From Deltaproteobacteria bacterium (GTDB lineage: Bacteria > Desulfobacterota > Desulfuromonadia > Desulfuromonadales > BM103): a DNA stretch of 35,257 nucleotides. Below the pieces are notes generated by a model, which made no database searches, was not told where the DNA came from, and worked only from the letters and a program-made list of their open reading frames with translations. Shown here piece by piece: positions 1,951-10,273 of the stretch. Where the stretch lies: assembly GCA_019313185.1 (NCBI GenBank), contig JAFDBS010000206.1:1-35257 (forward strand), written 5' to 3'. Position numbers and translations under genes: made by a program. Positions within the stretch are counted from its first letter, which is position 1, and each line of letters starts with the position of its first letter.

Positions 1951-2969
1951 TTGGCGCCTCCTTCCATTTGCTTGCGCAGGGGCAACAATGGCAGCAGGCC
2001 ATCACTGGTCTCATCGAGGATATACGTTTCATCGAAACGTGGGAGGATCTCTTCCAAGGTTTCCAGGTGAATTCGCCGACGTGTGACATTGGGCGCTTTA
2101 CGGTATTCGGCAAGAAGGGCTAAAAACCGATCCGTTTCACCCCGGGCTTTATTGATCCGCTCGATGGCATAACCCTCTGCCTCCTGCAGGGCCTTTTTGG
2201 CCTCACCTCTGGCCCTTGGCACTTCACGGTTGAACTGTTCGCGAGCCTGGAAGATCAGACTTTCCTTTTGTTGCTCGGATTCATTGACTTCGTTGAATGC
2301 TGCTTTGACCGGATCCGGGGGCGTGACGTCCTGAAACTTTACCGTCACGATCCTCACCCCGATGTCATAATCGTTCAAGGTTTGTTGAAGATCGGCCTCA
2401 ATATCCCCTGCCAACTGAGCACGTTCTGTGGTCAACACTTCCGTGACGTTGGCATTGCCAATTGCTTTGCGAACCATCGCCTCGCATATGTCGCGAATCG
2501 TCTCCACCGGGTTCTTTATGCGGAAAATGAATTTAAAGGGGTCAGCCACTTGAAACTGAACGATCCATTCAACGTCGCTGACATTGAGATCGCCGGTTAA
2601 TGTCAAGGATTCTTCTTCGAGACCTTTTTTCGTGTAAGTCGACCTTACCCCAGGCGCCACTGTTCGAAAACCAAACTCCTCTTTGAGAACCCTCCCCGTT
2701 TGCACCAGATAGACTTGGTCGATGCCGAAGGGAAGCTTGAAGTGGAGTCCTGGGTCAGAATAACCGGCAAATTTCCCGAAACGCAGGACAACGCCCGTCT
2801 CTTCGGTATCAACCTCATACATGCTGCTGTAGCCACCAATCACCAAGACGACAATTACCACCAATAAGGGCAAAACCCCTTTTTGGGGGCTAAATTTTTT
2901 CTTCAAATGGTCTTTGATTTCAACAATCTTTTTTTCCAGATCGTCGGGTCCAGTGCCCCAGTCTTGCAT
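1947..2969 (-). CDS. hflK: HflK, SPFH/band-7 membrane protease modulator
   Basis: Partner of HflC in the FtsH-modulating inner-membrane complex. I place the start at 2969 rather than at the longer open frame, because the minus strand reads AAGGAGG, 6 nt, ATG there, and the protein then begins MQDWGTGPDDLEKK, like other HflK proteins (340 aa). Order of parts: short cytoplasmic N-terminus, transmembrane helix (about residues 32-50), band-7 domain (EETGVVLRFGKFAG, GLHFKLPFGID), then a long coiled helical segment (about 215-290, AREQFNREVPRARGEAKKAL). The Gly-rich N-terminal region of enterobacterial HflK is much shorter here. The stop overlaps the hflC start by 4 bp. Confidence 0.96.
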   Translation of the reverse strand: MQDWGTGPDDLEKKIVEIKDHLKKKFSPQKGVLPLLVVIVVLVIGGYSSMYEVDTEETGVVLRFGKFAGYSDPGLHFKLPFGIDQVYLVQTGRVLKEEFGFRTVAPGVRSTYTKKGLEEESLTLTGDLNVSDVEWIVQFQVADPFKFIFRIKNPVETIRDICEAMVRKAIGNANVTEVLTTERAQLAGDIEADLQQTLNDYDIGVRIVTVKFQDVTPPDPVKAAFNEVNESEQQKESLIFQAREQFNREVPRARGEAKKALQEAEGYAIERINKARGETDRFLALLAEYRKAPNVTRRRIHLETLEEILPRFDETYILDETSDGLLPLLPLRKQMEGGAK

Positions 2970-3398
2970 TCGAAACCTCCTTAATTCTATCGGGAATGAT
3001 GTTATATGCTTGCCAAACAATCATATATGACAGCTTGAATGCTCTTATGTATAACAGGTTTGGCCAAGGAAACAAACTGTCATAATCGATTCCGTGGAAC
3101 CGAAACCGATCGCGACATGTTATCACTGTTGGGTAACGGCAGAACACGTCCATTGCTAACTGCCTTTCGTAAAAAGGCTGATTTGATGCTCATCTTTTTT
3201 TAGTTTAAAACAGAACACCGCACCAGGCAGGCAATACAGGACGATTCTGGTAATCTTTAAGTGCGGAAATTAAACCGTCTTTTATTTATAACTATTTGGT
3301 TTTATTAAAATAAAAATTTACAAGGCTGGCAAATGGCTGCAAACAAACAATTTTTGACGAATGATGTTTTATAAAAACATCAAAATTTCAGTGAGTTA
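2970..3398. other. AT-rich intergenic region without a convincing gene
   Basis: This gap lies between the start of hflK (minus) and the plus-strand unit at 3399-3634. It must hold the hflK promoter, but I could not pick a good -35/-10 pair. The part from about 3180 to 3390 is strikingly A/T-rich with many A and T runs, as is common upstream of sigma-54 promoters with bent DNA. No open frame here has a ribosome-binding site. Confidence 0.6.
3362..3382. promoter_or_regulatory. perfect inverted repeat, possible operator
   Basis: TGATGTTTT-ATA-AAAACATCA: 9-bp perfect arms with a 3-bp centre. It sits just upstream of the sigma-54-like element at 3399-3414, so a DNA-binding protein here could act on that promoter. 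Symmetry suggests a dimeric protein site; no family is assigned. Confidence 0.5.
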
Positions 3399-3414
3399 TG
3401 GCACAAATCTGGCT
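3399..3414 (+). promoter_or_regulatory. sigma-54 (RpoN) type -24/-12 promoter
   Basis: The sequence TGGCACAAATCTGGCT matches the sigma-54 consensus TGGCACGrNNNTTGCW at nearly every defined position (A for G at position 7, G for T at position 13). The invariant GG (3400-3401) and GC (3412-3413) are exactly 10 bp apart. A start site near 3425 would leave a leader of about 45 nt before the 29-codon gene at 3469. I did not see another match this good in the window. Confidence 0.6.
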
Positions 3415-3468
3415 TATCAGGGTTATTGACTTGCAATTCGGCAAGCTGTAACCGGAAGGAGATGGACC

Positions 3469-3558
3469 ATGTTGATCAGTTTTGTAGCCTCGCTCGTCTC
3501 TTATATTTCGATCATTGTCGTTGCTCAATTGGCTTGGCTGTTACGTAAAGGCCGCTAG
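3469..3558 (+). CDS. 29-residue single-helix membrane protein
   Basis: A 29-codon gene not recognised as any named small protein. It begins MLISFVASL and ends AWLLRKGR: a hydrophobic helix of about 22 residues followed by a positively charged Arg-Lys-Gly-Arg tail, which predicts one membrane span with the C-terminus in the cytoplasm. Support for its being real: AAGGAG lies 7 nt before the ATG, a sigma-54-like promoter lies about 45 nt upstream of the ATG counted from its predicted start site, and a strong terminator starts 42 nt after the stop. It therefore forms a complete one-gene transcription unit. KdpF, CydX and similar small subunits have comparable size, but their partner genes are absent, so I assign no function. 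Confidence 0.65.
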   Translation: MLISFVASLVSYISIIVVAQLAWLLRKGR

Positions 3559-3599
3559 AACTGGCCTGCCGCGACATTCTAATAAAGAGACAAGGAAAG

Positions 3600-3634
3600 G
3601 GGCGACACTGTTGTAACAGTTGGTCGCCCTTTTT
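3600..3634 (+). terminator. bidirectional intrinsic terminator
   Basis: A GGGCGAC/GTCGCCC stem with an inner ACTG/CAGT pairing is followed by TTTTT on the plus strand. This ends the 29-aa unit. On the minus strand the same hairpin is followed by TTTCCTTGTC, so it can also end the antiporter gene that converges from the right. Confidence 0.85.
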
Positions 3635-3702
3635 GCGCAGGTGCTCAAGACCTGGCTTGGACTGGACGCAATTGCCGGCATTGGGTGAGTTTTTGACACA
3701 GG

Positions 3703-4881
3703 TCAGCGATTGATTGAAACGTCTCCGCTTGCGATGAGCGCCCGTTTGGTCATGATCGGGCCAAACAATTCAAAGACAATTGTGCCGCCTATGACGACCG
3801 GCATGATGATGTTGTTGAGGTCTTGGAAACGTTGGCAAGCGTACAAAGCCATACCCAAAGCGATCCCGGCCTGAGGCATTAATCCCATCCACATATGCCG
3901 GCAAACCATCTTGTCGGCCCCGCTCCACTTGGCACCAATGTTCGAGCCGAGGAACTTGCCCAGTACTCTCAGGCAGACATAAATCAGAAAAACAGACCCT
4001 GCGGTAAAAATTGCCTTTAAGTGTAAAGACGCACCTGAGAGCACGAAAAACAAAGTCAGGAATGGCCACTCGATCCCCTCAACCGCATGGAATGGCCGCG
4101 CATGATGTTTCGCCAAATTGGCAACCACGCTCCCCATTGCCATTGAGGACAGGATGAAAGACACCTCCATCCAGAACGCAATGCCGGCACACAAGAAGAC
4201 AAAACCCAGCGCCTCGACCAGGGTGGGTTCACCAGGCTTGACCCGGCCGGTCAAAAAGGCCATCGGAATGCCCATTAGCACGCCGAGAATGATGGCGCCG
4301 GCCACATCCCAAAGGCCAGTCAACAAGATCACGGAAGCACCCTGGCCGCCGGATAATGCCATGGTCATCGACAGGACCACTGTGAAAAACACCACTCCCC
4401 AGATGTCGTCAATGCCGACGACACCCAGCAATACGTCTGTAAACGGGCCTTCTGCGTGGGTCTCCTTGACAACATCGACCGTTGCTGCCGGAGCCGTCGC
4501 GGGTGCAATCGCGCCAAGCAATAATGCAGCCGGGAGGGACATGCCAACTATCAGCATGCCCAGCGTGACAAGGGCGGCTGTTATGATCACTTCAAACAGA
4601 GAAATGCCCAACACGTGACGGCCTGATTTTTTGAGAAATGGGATGGTCAGCTGTCCTCCTAAAAGAAACCCGATCATCACCAACGCCATATCGGCCACAG
4701 CAGGAAACCAGCGGTGTCCAACTTCGGGAATAATGTCGAGCACTGACGGTCCTGCGATAAAGCCAAAGACCATCAGCAGTGACACCCGGGGCAACCATGT
4801 ATTCCGCCCGATCAAATCCGTCATCAAGCCCACAAAAAAAAGCAGGCCCAGGGTCAGGAAAAAGTTGGTAAAGTCGACCAT
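3703..4881 (-). CDS. CPA2-family cation:proton antiporter
   Basis: Integral inner-membrane protein with about 12 hydrophobic segments along its whole length, of the Na+/H+ exchanger (CPA2/Kef/NapA-like) family. It is the membrane domain only (392 aa from this ATG), with no TrkA-N or USP tail. Seen motifs: PRVSLLMVFGFIAGPSVLD, then APATAPAATVDVVKE (the unwound helix region), then VVGIDDIWGVVFF. Its paired aspartates IDD match the double-Asp ion site of electrogenic exchangers, which suggests Na+/H+ or a similar exchange. Start choice is weak: the ATG at 4881 lacks a Shine-Dalgarno, and a GTG at 4926 would add 15 residues but also lacks one. It stands alone, convergent with the 29-aa unit. Confidence 0.9.
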   Translation of the reverse strand: MVDFTNFFLTLGLLFFVGLMTDLIGRNTWLPRVSLLMVFGFIAGPSVLDIIPEVGHRWFPAVADMALVMIGFLLGGQLTIPFLKKSGRHVLGISLFEVIITAALVTLGMLIVGMSLPAALLLGAIAPATAPAATVDVVKETHAEGPFTDVLLGVVGIDDIWGVVFFTVVLSMTMALSGGQGASVILLTGLWDVAGAIILGVLMGIPMAFLTGRVKPGEPTLVEALGFVFLCAGIAFWMEVSFILSSMAMGSVVANLAKHHARPFHAVEGIEWPFLTLFFVLSGASLHLKAIFTAGSVFLIYVCLRVLGKFLGSNIGAKWSGADKMVCRHMWMGLMPQAGIALGMALYACQRFQDLNNIIMPVVIGGTIVFELFGPIMTKRALIASGDVSINR

Positions 4882-5205: not shown

Positions 5206-6093
5206 CTAGTGCAACCTCTTGTTTTCTCGAGGCGGTGGCGAATTGAGTATTCGGCTTATCGCATTGCAGATCTGTTGGACAGAGGATGGTTTAGGTAAGA
5301 ACGCGATCTTTGACGTCACTAAAAAGTTGAGGTCTTCACTGCGCTTGGTGTCGCTGAAGAAAATGAAGCGATATTCCAATTCAGGGGCGAGGGTCAGCGC
5401 TTTTTTGTACATTTCAATGCCTCGGATTTTCGGTGTATTAACCTCAGAGAGTATCAGGTCGAAATGGCCTTTCCGGATTTGGGCGAGGCCTTCATCTCCA
5501 TCTCGAGCAACCGTTACCTCTGCCTCATCCATTAGCAAGGCTTTGAGCATGATGGCCGTGGCCAGATCGTTTTCAACGATCAAAACCCGATTTTTGGTTT
5601 GCTGACGGAGCCTGCGAACCCTCTGCAGAAGACTTTCCCCCTGCGGAATATCTGAAATGAAATTTTGAATCCCTATTCGATGCTGGTCGATTTTGGCCGC
5701 GGCCTTCTCAAAGTCTTCACCCAAACCTTTCGATGCGCTGATGGTGTAGATAAAAGCTTCATTCCATTCTGAGAATTCGATCTCGGCAATGATATCGATG
5801 ATGTCATTTGACTTTAACTCACCTCTGTCGAGCGCGTTTTGTGCGCTGATGATTGGTTGGTCAATCTTGCGCCGGAAATCATCATCGAAATAAATGGCAG
5901 CAGGAGCGAGACGTGCGATGGGGAGAGACTCCATCGTTTTTCGGAGTAATTTCAGATGCTCCCGCTCCTCAACTGCAAGGTGATGCAAAAAACCGGATAG
6001 CTTTTTGTCATCGCTGAAACAAACTGCAGCCTCAGAGTATAAATTTGCGGCCGCGTTTTCAACTCCTATCATCCAGAACAGAATTTCGTTCAC
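5206..6093 (-). CDS. ferritin-like domain fused to a degenerate response-regulator receiver
   Basis: 295 residues from a GTG at 6091-6093, chosen because AAGGAG precedes it by 5 nt; longer in-frame starts lack this. Residues about 1-145 are a four-helix ferritin/rubrerythrin-like bundle with likely metal ligands E12, E43xxH46, E106/E109 and H138. Residues about 168-285 are a CheY-like receiver (VLIVEND, LILSEVNTP, FFSD, FLPKP). The conserved Ser (S247) and Lys (K268) remain, but the acidic pair is E174/N175 and the phospho-acceptor Asp is Glu (E217). Phosphorylation is therefore doubtful and the receiver may be locked or purely a binding module. There is no output domain. It may sense iron, oxygen or redox state through the diiron bundle. 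Domain calls are from pattern; the function is inference. Confidence 0.8.
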   Translation of the reverse strand: MNEILFWMIGVENAAANLYSEAAVCFSDDKKLSGFLHHLAVEEREHLKLLRKTMESLPIARLAPAAIYFDDDFRRKIDQPIISAQNALDRGELKSNDIIDIIAEIEFSEWNEAFIYTISASKGLGEDFEKAAAKIDQHRIGIQNFISDIPQGESLLQRVRRLRQQTKNRVLIVENDLATAIMLKALLMDEAEVTVARDGDEGLAQIRKGHFDLILSEVNTPKIRGIEMYKKALTLAPELEYRFIFFSDTKRSEDLNFLVTSKIAFLPKPSSVQQICNAISRILNSPPPRENKRLH

Positions 6094-6301
6094 ACGCGCT
6101 CCTTGTTGATGTCCAGTCATTGCAACAGCAAGATTGAAACGACCCAAAGCGCATCCGGACATCACCAATGAAAATCGTCAAAAAAATAGAATTCTTAACA
6201 GCTTAAGGAAACCATCGCAACTTAAAAAGCTTTTTTATGTTGTTGAAGACCATGATTTTGATATTCTCGCAACGTTCCGTGAACAATCCCATGCCATTTT
6301 G

Positions 6302-6606: not shown

Positions 6607-7002
6607 TGGTTCCGCTTTCGTATCTTTGGTCTCCGAACCGGACTGTTATCTTAACATGCCATTGGCAAGCAAACGAACGTGTCAAAACGCAATCGTTTCA
6701 TCAACAATGCACACATCGGACCTGTGGTTTTGCACATGCAATCCGCTTGATTGGCGAAGACCCAAAGTCATATTCAACGTTGATCAACAAAGCAGTCTTT
6801 TTCATTCGAGCGGGAACTCCCTCACAAAATGATTCCAGCGTGCTGAGGATTCTAGGCTCCGTAATTCGAACAACCAATGTCTGACGCCAATGCTCTGCAA
6901 GTTTGAATTTTACCAGCAGATCGATGGTGGCAAGGCCTTCAGCCTCTTGTGCAGTCCAACCACCTTGTCACAGCAGTCCTGCGTGAGAGGGCCCCGAAAT
7001 CT
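6607..7002. other. gene-poor region upstream of the arsenate pair
   Basis: No convincing complete gene. On the minus strand one frame is open from 6967 down to a TGA at 6701-6703 (88 codons), with protein-like composition (GLATIDLLVKFKLAEHW, RILSTLESFCEGVP) but no good start; an internal ATG would give only 34 residues. It may be a decayed gene. Promoters for the leftward small-protein transcript and for the rightward arsenate pair must also lie here. Confidence 0.4.
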
Positions 7003-9339: not shown

Positions 9340-9669
9340 CCAACGCCTGTACGTGTTTGCAGACTACCCGCAGTGAAGTCAAGATGTCCTGATGCTCTGA
9401 TCAGAGCACGCCTGTTTTCGGGCTTGTGAGAAATCAAGACATCTCAATCCATCTCGTGCAACGCTGCCGTTGGATTCTATTTAAACGGGCATCGGCTGAG
9501 GTCATGCCTTCAAAAACCTAACTTTAGTTTTATACTTTCCACTCTTTCGTTATATTGCACTTTCCTCTGGCTTGCATTAAACATAAAGACACCTTGAAAC
9601 GTTTGTCTGTCTGATTTGGAACTTATGTGAGTTCCTGCGGAATGTCCGCAACACAAATTGTTATTCACT
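9340..9669. other. intergenic region between arsJ and the riboswitch
   Basis: No gene. It holds a 16-bp perfect palindrome (9393-9408), a surrounding AGATGTC/GACATCT repeat (9382-9388 and 9438-9444), and AT-rich sequence at 9510-9600, where a promoter for the riboswitch transcript would be expected. TATACT at about 9530 is the best -10 candidate but lacks a good -35. Confidence 0.5.
9393..9408. repeat. 16-bp perfect palindrome after arsJ
   Basis: TGCTCTGATCAGAGCA, 54 nt after the arsJ stop. In RNA it would fold as a short hairpin; it has no T-run after it, so it is a poor intrinsic terminator. It could be a transcript-end stem or a protein site. Confidence 0.45.
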
Positions 9670-9748
9670 CCGAGAAGGGCAAACCTGTAGCAATGCAGGG
9701 ACGCAAAGTCTCAGATCCGCCCCAGCGGATGGCTGGACTGCCGAAGAG
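9670..9748 (+). ncRNA. cyclic-di-GMP-I (GEMM-I) riboswitch aptamer
   Basis: The segment carries the invariant GEMM-I core in order: GGGCAAACC (9677-9685), a stem CCTGTA/TGCAGG closed by a GCAA tetraloop (9688-9693 region), GGGACGCAAAG (9698-9708), a second stem ATCCGC/GCGGAT with loop CCCA (9715-9730), then GGCTGGACTGCCG. The GNRA loop and the second stem are the expected docking partners of this class. Ligand: the second messenger cyclic di-GMP. It lies upstream of two hairpins (9741-9777 and 9800-9836) and the membrane-protein gene at 9923. The 3' strand of the aptamer (CCGAAG, 9741-9746) is also the 5' arm of the first hairpin, so aptamer folding and termination should compete. Confidence 0.92.
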
Positions 9749-9922: not shown

Positions 9923-10273
9923 ATGTTTTCTGTTTGGGCAATCATTTCCTGTGTTCTGCTAGTGCTGATCATGTGGCTAACCTATGCTCTGCAGAAAGAA
10001 CGCGAACAAAACCTGTGTTTGGCAAATGAGCTTATCGCTGTCAAAGCCGACAGTTTGTCCAACCACCACAGTTCGGAACTGCTGACCTCTTCAAGGGGTG
10101 AAGCGTCAGCCACCAACACATGTTTTTTCAGCCACGAATCCTGCGCCCAAACGGCTCCATACAAAACGCTGGGTTCTACCCACCAATCGTCATCAAAGCC
10201 TGACAAGGCCTCCCGCATCGATCGCCGAGGAGGGGCACAGTTGCTGAATTGTTCGGTCAAGTTTCAAGATTGA
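9923..10273 (+). CDS. 116-residue one-helix membrane protein under riboswitch control
   Basis: Unrecognised. It begins MFSVWAIISCVLLVLIMWL, a transmembrane helix at about residues 4-22 without a cleavage site, followed by a short charged helix (LQKEREQNLCLANELIAV) and a polar, Ser/Thr-rich tail with a few Cys that looks unstructured. A bitopic protein with a roughly 90-residue soluble tail is predicted. The start is well supported: AAGGAGG precedes the ATG. Upstream lie a cyclic-di-GMP-I aptamer and two hairpins, so its production should follow cyclic di-GMP, linking it to surface attachment, motility or envelope functions. The tail could be less conserved than the start. Confidence 0.75.
   Translation: MFSVWAIISCVLLVLIMWLTYALQKEREQNLCLANELIAVKADSLSNHHSSELLTSSRGEASATNTCFFSHESCAQTAPYKTLGSTHQSSSKPDKASRIDRRGGAQLLNCSVKFQD

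Follow-up and report, generated by a model that had tools for sequence, protein, structure and literature searches.

A small gene between hflK-hflC and a Na/H exchanger-family gene

The window, which is the whole 35,257-nucleotide stretch of DNA analysed here, contains a 682-bp intergenic region that holds a 29-codon open reading frame, MLISFVASLVSYISIIVVAQLAWLLRKGR, on the forward strand (3469-3558; ATG at 3469, TAG ending at 3558). Upstream of this frame lie the divergent hflK-hflC genes (TIGR01933, TIGR01932), and downstream a convergent gene of the Na/H exchanger family. The frame is led by an AAGGAG ribosome-binding site (3456-3461, forward strand) and encodes a predicted one-helix membrane peptide. 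Among shuffled versions of the intergenic region, 0.1% contain a frame of at least 25 residues with a ribosome-binding site and a helix of transmembrane grade. Downstream, at about 3595-3634 on the same strand, a hairpin with a T run forms a Rho-independent terminator with a folding energy of -23 kcal/mol (z -4.3); it was not among the terminators picked up by a simple scan.

On the 5' side, a sigma-54-type -24/-12 promoter occupies positions 3399-3414 and is preceded by an inverted repeat at 3362-3382. The first-pass annotation had proposed these two elements, the AAGGAG site, the short frame and the strong terminator as the parts of an independent gene. Each is found where it was placed and exceeds chance.

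A peptide family of the Desulfuromonadales

Iterated profile searches covering 136 genomes of the order, 277 of the class and a phylum sample of 395 delimited the family. The peptide is carried by 16 genomes, all belonging to the Desulfuromonadales, and no carrier outside the order appears in the class or the phylum sample. In the first protein search of relatives, the matches fall within the same family and order and have near-constant length, and a DNA-level search for orthologs returns only the gene itself. Several low-scoring protein matches were dropped as internal pieces of other proteins. The distribution is patchy, with most sampled genomes of the peptide's own taxonomic family giving no match. 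No Pfam or NCBIfam model covers the peptide in the profile search, and a PDB profile search yields no meaningful match.

The copies are each 29-32 residues long and share 24-55% identity, and every one has an AGGAG-type site shortly 5' of its ATG. Frame, length and ribosome-binding site are thus conserved, and the pattern of change is that of coding DNA: the second codon position is the most conserved (mismatch 0.51, 0.37 and 0.64 at positions 1, 2 and 3), and the BLOSUM similarity is 39.6 in frame, compared with roughly -2 to -3 for the alternative frames, which contain stops and show no similarity, so that conservation is confined to the coding frame. The first-pass annotation had proposed aligning the 29-residue frame in related genomes, with loss of the frame counting against the gene; since the frame is kept in 16 genomes of the order, this objection falls away and the independent small gene is borne out. 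The 3469-3558 frame is therefore strongly supported as a real, independent, monocistronic and conserved small gene that has escaped annotation, and the Desulfuromonadales gain a conserved family of small proteins.

Along the peptide, F5, L9 and Y12 are invariant (16/16), and Q20 is glutamine in 12 of the 16 copies. The net charge of the C-terminus is positive in 15/16, and that of the N-terminus is 0 or -1. By the positive-inside rule, the basic end of a membrane helix stays inside; a basic C-terminus and a neutral or acidic N-terminus therefore predict an N-out/C-in orientation. In one genome, a second copy of the gene (G074:C165:5392, L081) lies on the same contig and is interrupted by a TGA; it appears to be a duplicate in decay.

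The flanking genes differ between clades. G002 has genes for an RNA methyltransferase and a glycosyltransferase on the two sides. G034 and G070 have htpX as the divergent gene (profile-tested in G034), and their copy of the small gene leads into one for a sulfide/dihydroorotate-dehydrogenase-like flavoprotein (profile-tested in G070). In G043, G023, G135 and G051, the translated N-terminus of the divergent gene reads by eye as RNase HI. Both hflK and htpX are membrane-proteolysis genes. The adjacent hflKC pair had been taken as a clue to an envelope role; with different neighbours in other clades this clue is not supported, even though htpX is the divergent gene in one genus, and the location carries little functional information. 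As the hflKC neighbourhood is not conserved, any envelope role has to be argued from the peptide.

A sigma-54-type promoter in a subset of carriers

The -24/-12 element, TGGCACAAATCTGGCT (TGGCAC-N5-TGGCT, 3399-3414, forward strand; predicted start ~3425), has the GG-N10-GC spacing and one mismatch to TGGCAC-N5-TTGCW. A pattern of this type is expected 0.07 times per 35-kb window, and its strict version appears in 0/2000 shuffles of the 107 bp 5' of the ATG; a bare GG-N10-GC is common, occurring in 31% of shuffles of the same 107 bp. The exact extended promoter TATGGCNNNNNTNTGGCW has three matches in the genome, and that of the small gene is the only intergenic one. The other two are identical in sequence and lie inside coding-like membrane-protein sequence upstream of another membrane frame. 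A pattern scan of genome contigs for promoter, ribosome-binding site and ATG gives 70 stretches, by our estimate about the number expected by chance; among them, 2 are recognised as known orthologs, both in Desulfuromonas MAGs.

Across the family, TTATGGC-N7-TGGC(A/T) is invariant in the genome of the window, G002, G115 and G025, which span two families, while almost every column of the spacer and of the downstream sequence varies. An element resembling it, TGGCGTATTTTTCGCA, is present in G109. The -24/-12 element is thus conserved in 4, probably 5, of the 16 genomes. Most of the other carriers lack the -12 GC and instead have a sigma-70-like pair, consisting of TTGAAA and a -10-like hexamer 16-18 bp downstream. 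The genome of the window contains rpoN together with enhancer-binding activators, namely nine activator genes of NtrC size (457-514 aa) and larger ones.

The sigma-70-like pair of the relatives bears on a different reading, in which a genuine gene has, in this genome, an active promoter of sigma-70 type or one read by another factor, the -24/-12 match being accidental. The TTGAAA held by most relatives at the aligned position would fit this reading, yet the corresponding hexamer here is CAAAAT, and a simple scan of both strands over 2950-3750 found no sigma-70-like promoter. An element that stays invariant in four genomes of two families while its surroundings change also argues against coincidence, and we regard an accidental match as improbable. 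Sigma-54 control of the small gene in this genome is well supported by the promoter sequence and its conservation. The first-pass proposal of such control is supported here and in G002, G115, G025 and probably G109, and is in line with the rpoN and activator genes of this genome; it does not extend to the whole family. Since most relatives do not have the -24/-12 element, the family as a whole would not need sigma-54, and its use appears to be specific to certain lineages.

A conserved block upstream of the promoter

On the 5' side of the gene, 15 copies align without gaps over ~80 bp, covering an A-tract, TTGAA and an IHF-like core. Here, the conserved block spans 3338-3408 on the forward strand, its best-conserved part is the A-tract (3373-3377) and the IHF-like site TTTCAGTGAGTTA lies at 3386-3398, at a homologous position in most relatives. 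IHF sites usually lie farther from the -24 element than this core, which abuts it. Most relatives have a core with 0 or 1 mismatch at the corresponding position; taken alone, the match in this genome is not significant (p 0.19). Compared with the IHF consensus WATCARNNNNTTR, as quoted in PMC7962754, the site has one mismatch. At the promoter of the small gene, no enhancer site that an activator could bind was found.

A sequence model of the block (R1), built from 14 of the 15 upstream regions, was searched against 136 genomes. It gives 14 strong sites, which are without exception promoters of this gene, in 14 Desulfuromonadales genomes, and the next match is weaker by orders of magnitude. The block was therefore rejected as a marker of a regulon. 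Its weaker matches comprise the A-tract and IHF-like core upstream of unrelated genes.

Most copies that do not have the -24/-12 element retain the same ~80-bp block, but with the sigma-70-like TTGAAA promoter. A tentative proposal, to which we give somewhat less than even weight, is that the upstream control block would have been kept while the sigma factor was switched between sigma-70 and sigma-54 among clades, wiring the peptide to different signals. The locus may in that case offer a simple test case of a small gene that changes its sigma factor while the upstream control DNA stays.

The inverted repeat, TGATGTTTT-ATA-AAAACATCA (3362-3382), has perfect 9-bp arms, and dinucleotide-shuffled versions of the 682-bp intergenic region contain such a repeat in 1.7% of cases. 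A role as a regulator site is not supported. The palindrome is not conserved in relatives, its centre at ~-53 from the predicted start is nearer than an enhancer would usually be, and the conserved A-tract beside the IHF-like site falls in its right arm. We regard the repeat as at least partly fortuitous.

The combination of A-tract, TTNAA and CAG-N2-GGTTATGG recurs across the order upstream of unrelated genes (for example L260, L264, L239 and L244) and is commoner than its reversed control; it resembles a site of IHF type or one associated with promoters. At another locus (L241, G030:C241, match 6924-6980), a weakly similar block lies 5' of a different 33-residue one-helix frame, MAGLLIFMLVFFPLILGCAELAKHFNHHDRHQH, which has a ribosome-binding site and a terminator-like hairpin and is possibly a second small peptide under similar control.

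Proposed role of the peptide

We infer, with a confidence slightly above even, that the gene encodes a signal-inducible, sigma-54-switched inner-membrane peptide of one helix that modulates a larger membrane complex. Sigma-54 RNA polymerase and an NtrC-type activator would switch the gene on in response to a signal, probably assisted by DNA bending at the adjacent IHF-like site. The 29-residue product would insert into the inner membrane as a single span, predicted to be N-out/C-in with a basic tail, and may act as an accessory helix of the larger complex, with F5, L9, Y12 and the mostly conserved Q20 marking the contact face. CydX, KdpF and MgtS are single helices that dock on larger membrane proteins, and their general layout is the same. 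This layout is also that of AcrZ, which docks on AcrB (PMC7267776). Unlike in layout, no relation of the peptide to these four is detectable in Pfam, NCBIfam or PDB. A partner complex, if found, would add one more to the few membrane peptides whose roles are known.

The main rival is a PspG- or YohP-like stress peptide that acts on the lipid bilayer or the proton-motive force itself, with no partner complex as its target. A small hydrophobic helix with a basic tail would suit such an action, as would the divergent neighbours, hflK here and htpX in G034 and G070; against this, the neighbours are not conserved, and the conserved polar Y and Q within the helix suggest a specific contact. PspG is larger than the 29-residue peptide and is activated by PspF. 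In E. coli it is likewise a small inner-membrane protein with a sigma-54 promoter, and its gene lies outside the main psp operon; the sigma-54 control of pspG is described in two papers (PMC2763126, PMC3068692). In the genome of the window, which is 86% complete, no match to PspA (PspA_IM30) and no activator of PspF size among the full-length activator matches were found, and the peptide has no family match; membership of a phage-shock (Psp) regulon was therefore rejected. YohP of E. coli, at 27 residues, is a small bacterial membrane protein of similar size; it is linked to nutrient starvation and stationary phase, is induced by stress and lowers the membrane potential (PMC12719787). It differs from the present peptide, which has the conserved F/L/Y/Q pattern and a distribution restricted to one order. 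On balance, action on the bilayer is rather unlikely.

Size and a one-helix layout with a basic tail are also shared with toxins of the TisB/Hok type, and the second copy with an internal TGA in one genome could likewise belong to a type I toxin-antitoxin locus regulated by an antisense RNA. Such a locus is very improbable here: the promoter is conserved and activatable, most carriers are single-copy, side chains inside the helix are conserved, the 2950-3750 scan offers no sigma-70-like promoter for an antisense RNA on either strand, and the locus has no Rfam match. An accessory helix of a larger membrane complex is the reading that we retain.

Other observations

In this genome and in several relatives, a hypE-like gene is followed by a frame (here G000:C255, L279:1754-1945) for a protein of 60-65 residues with two helices and no Pfam or NCBIfam match. 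Its second helix, YVSIVVAAQIATRVV, resembles the peptide (hhalign probability 76%, P 2.4e-5, in a comparison of hydrophobic helices), but the protein is twice as long, begins with an additional helix that bears W, P and R motifs and lies at another locus. Elsewhere in the window, the reverse-strand frame at 5206-6168 has a C-terminal response-regulator receiver domain and a weak rubrerythrin/COQ7-like match at its N-terminus. A c-di-GMP-I-GGC riboswitch, above the gathering score, lies at 9669-9746 on the forward strand, upstream of a 116-residue frame at 9923-10273.
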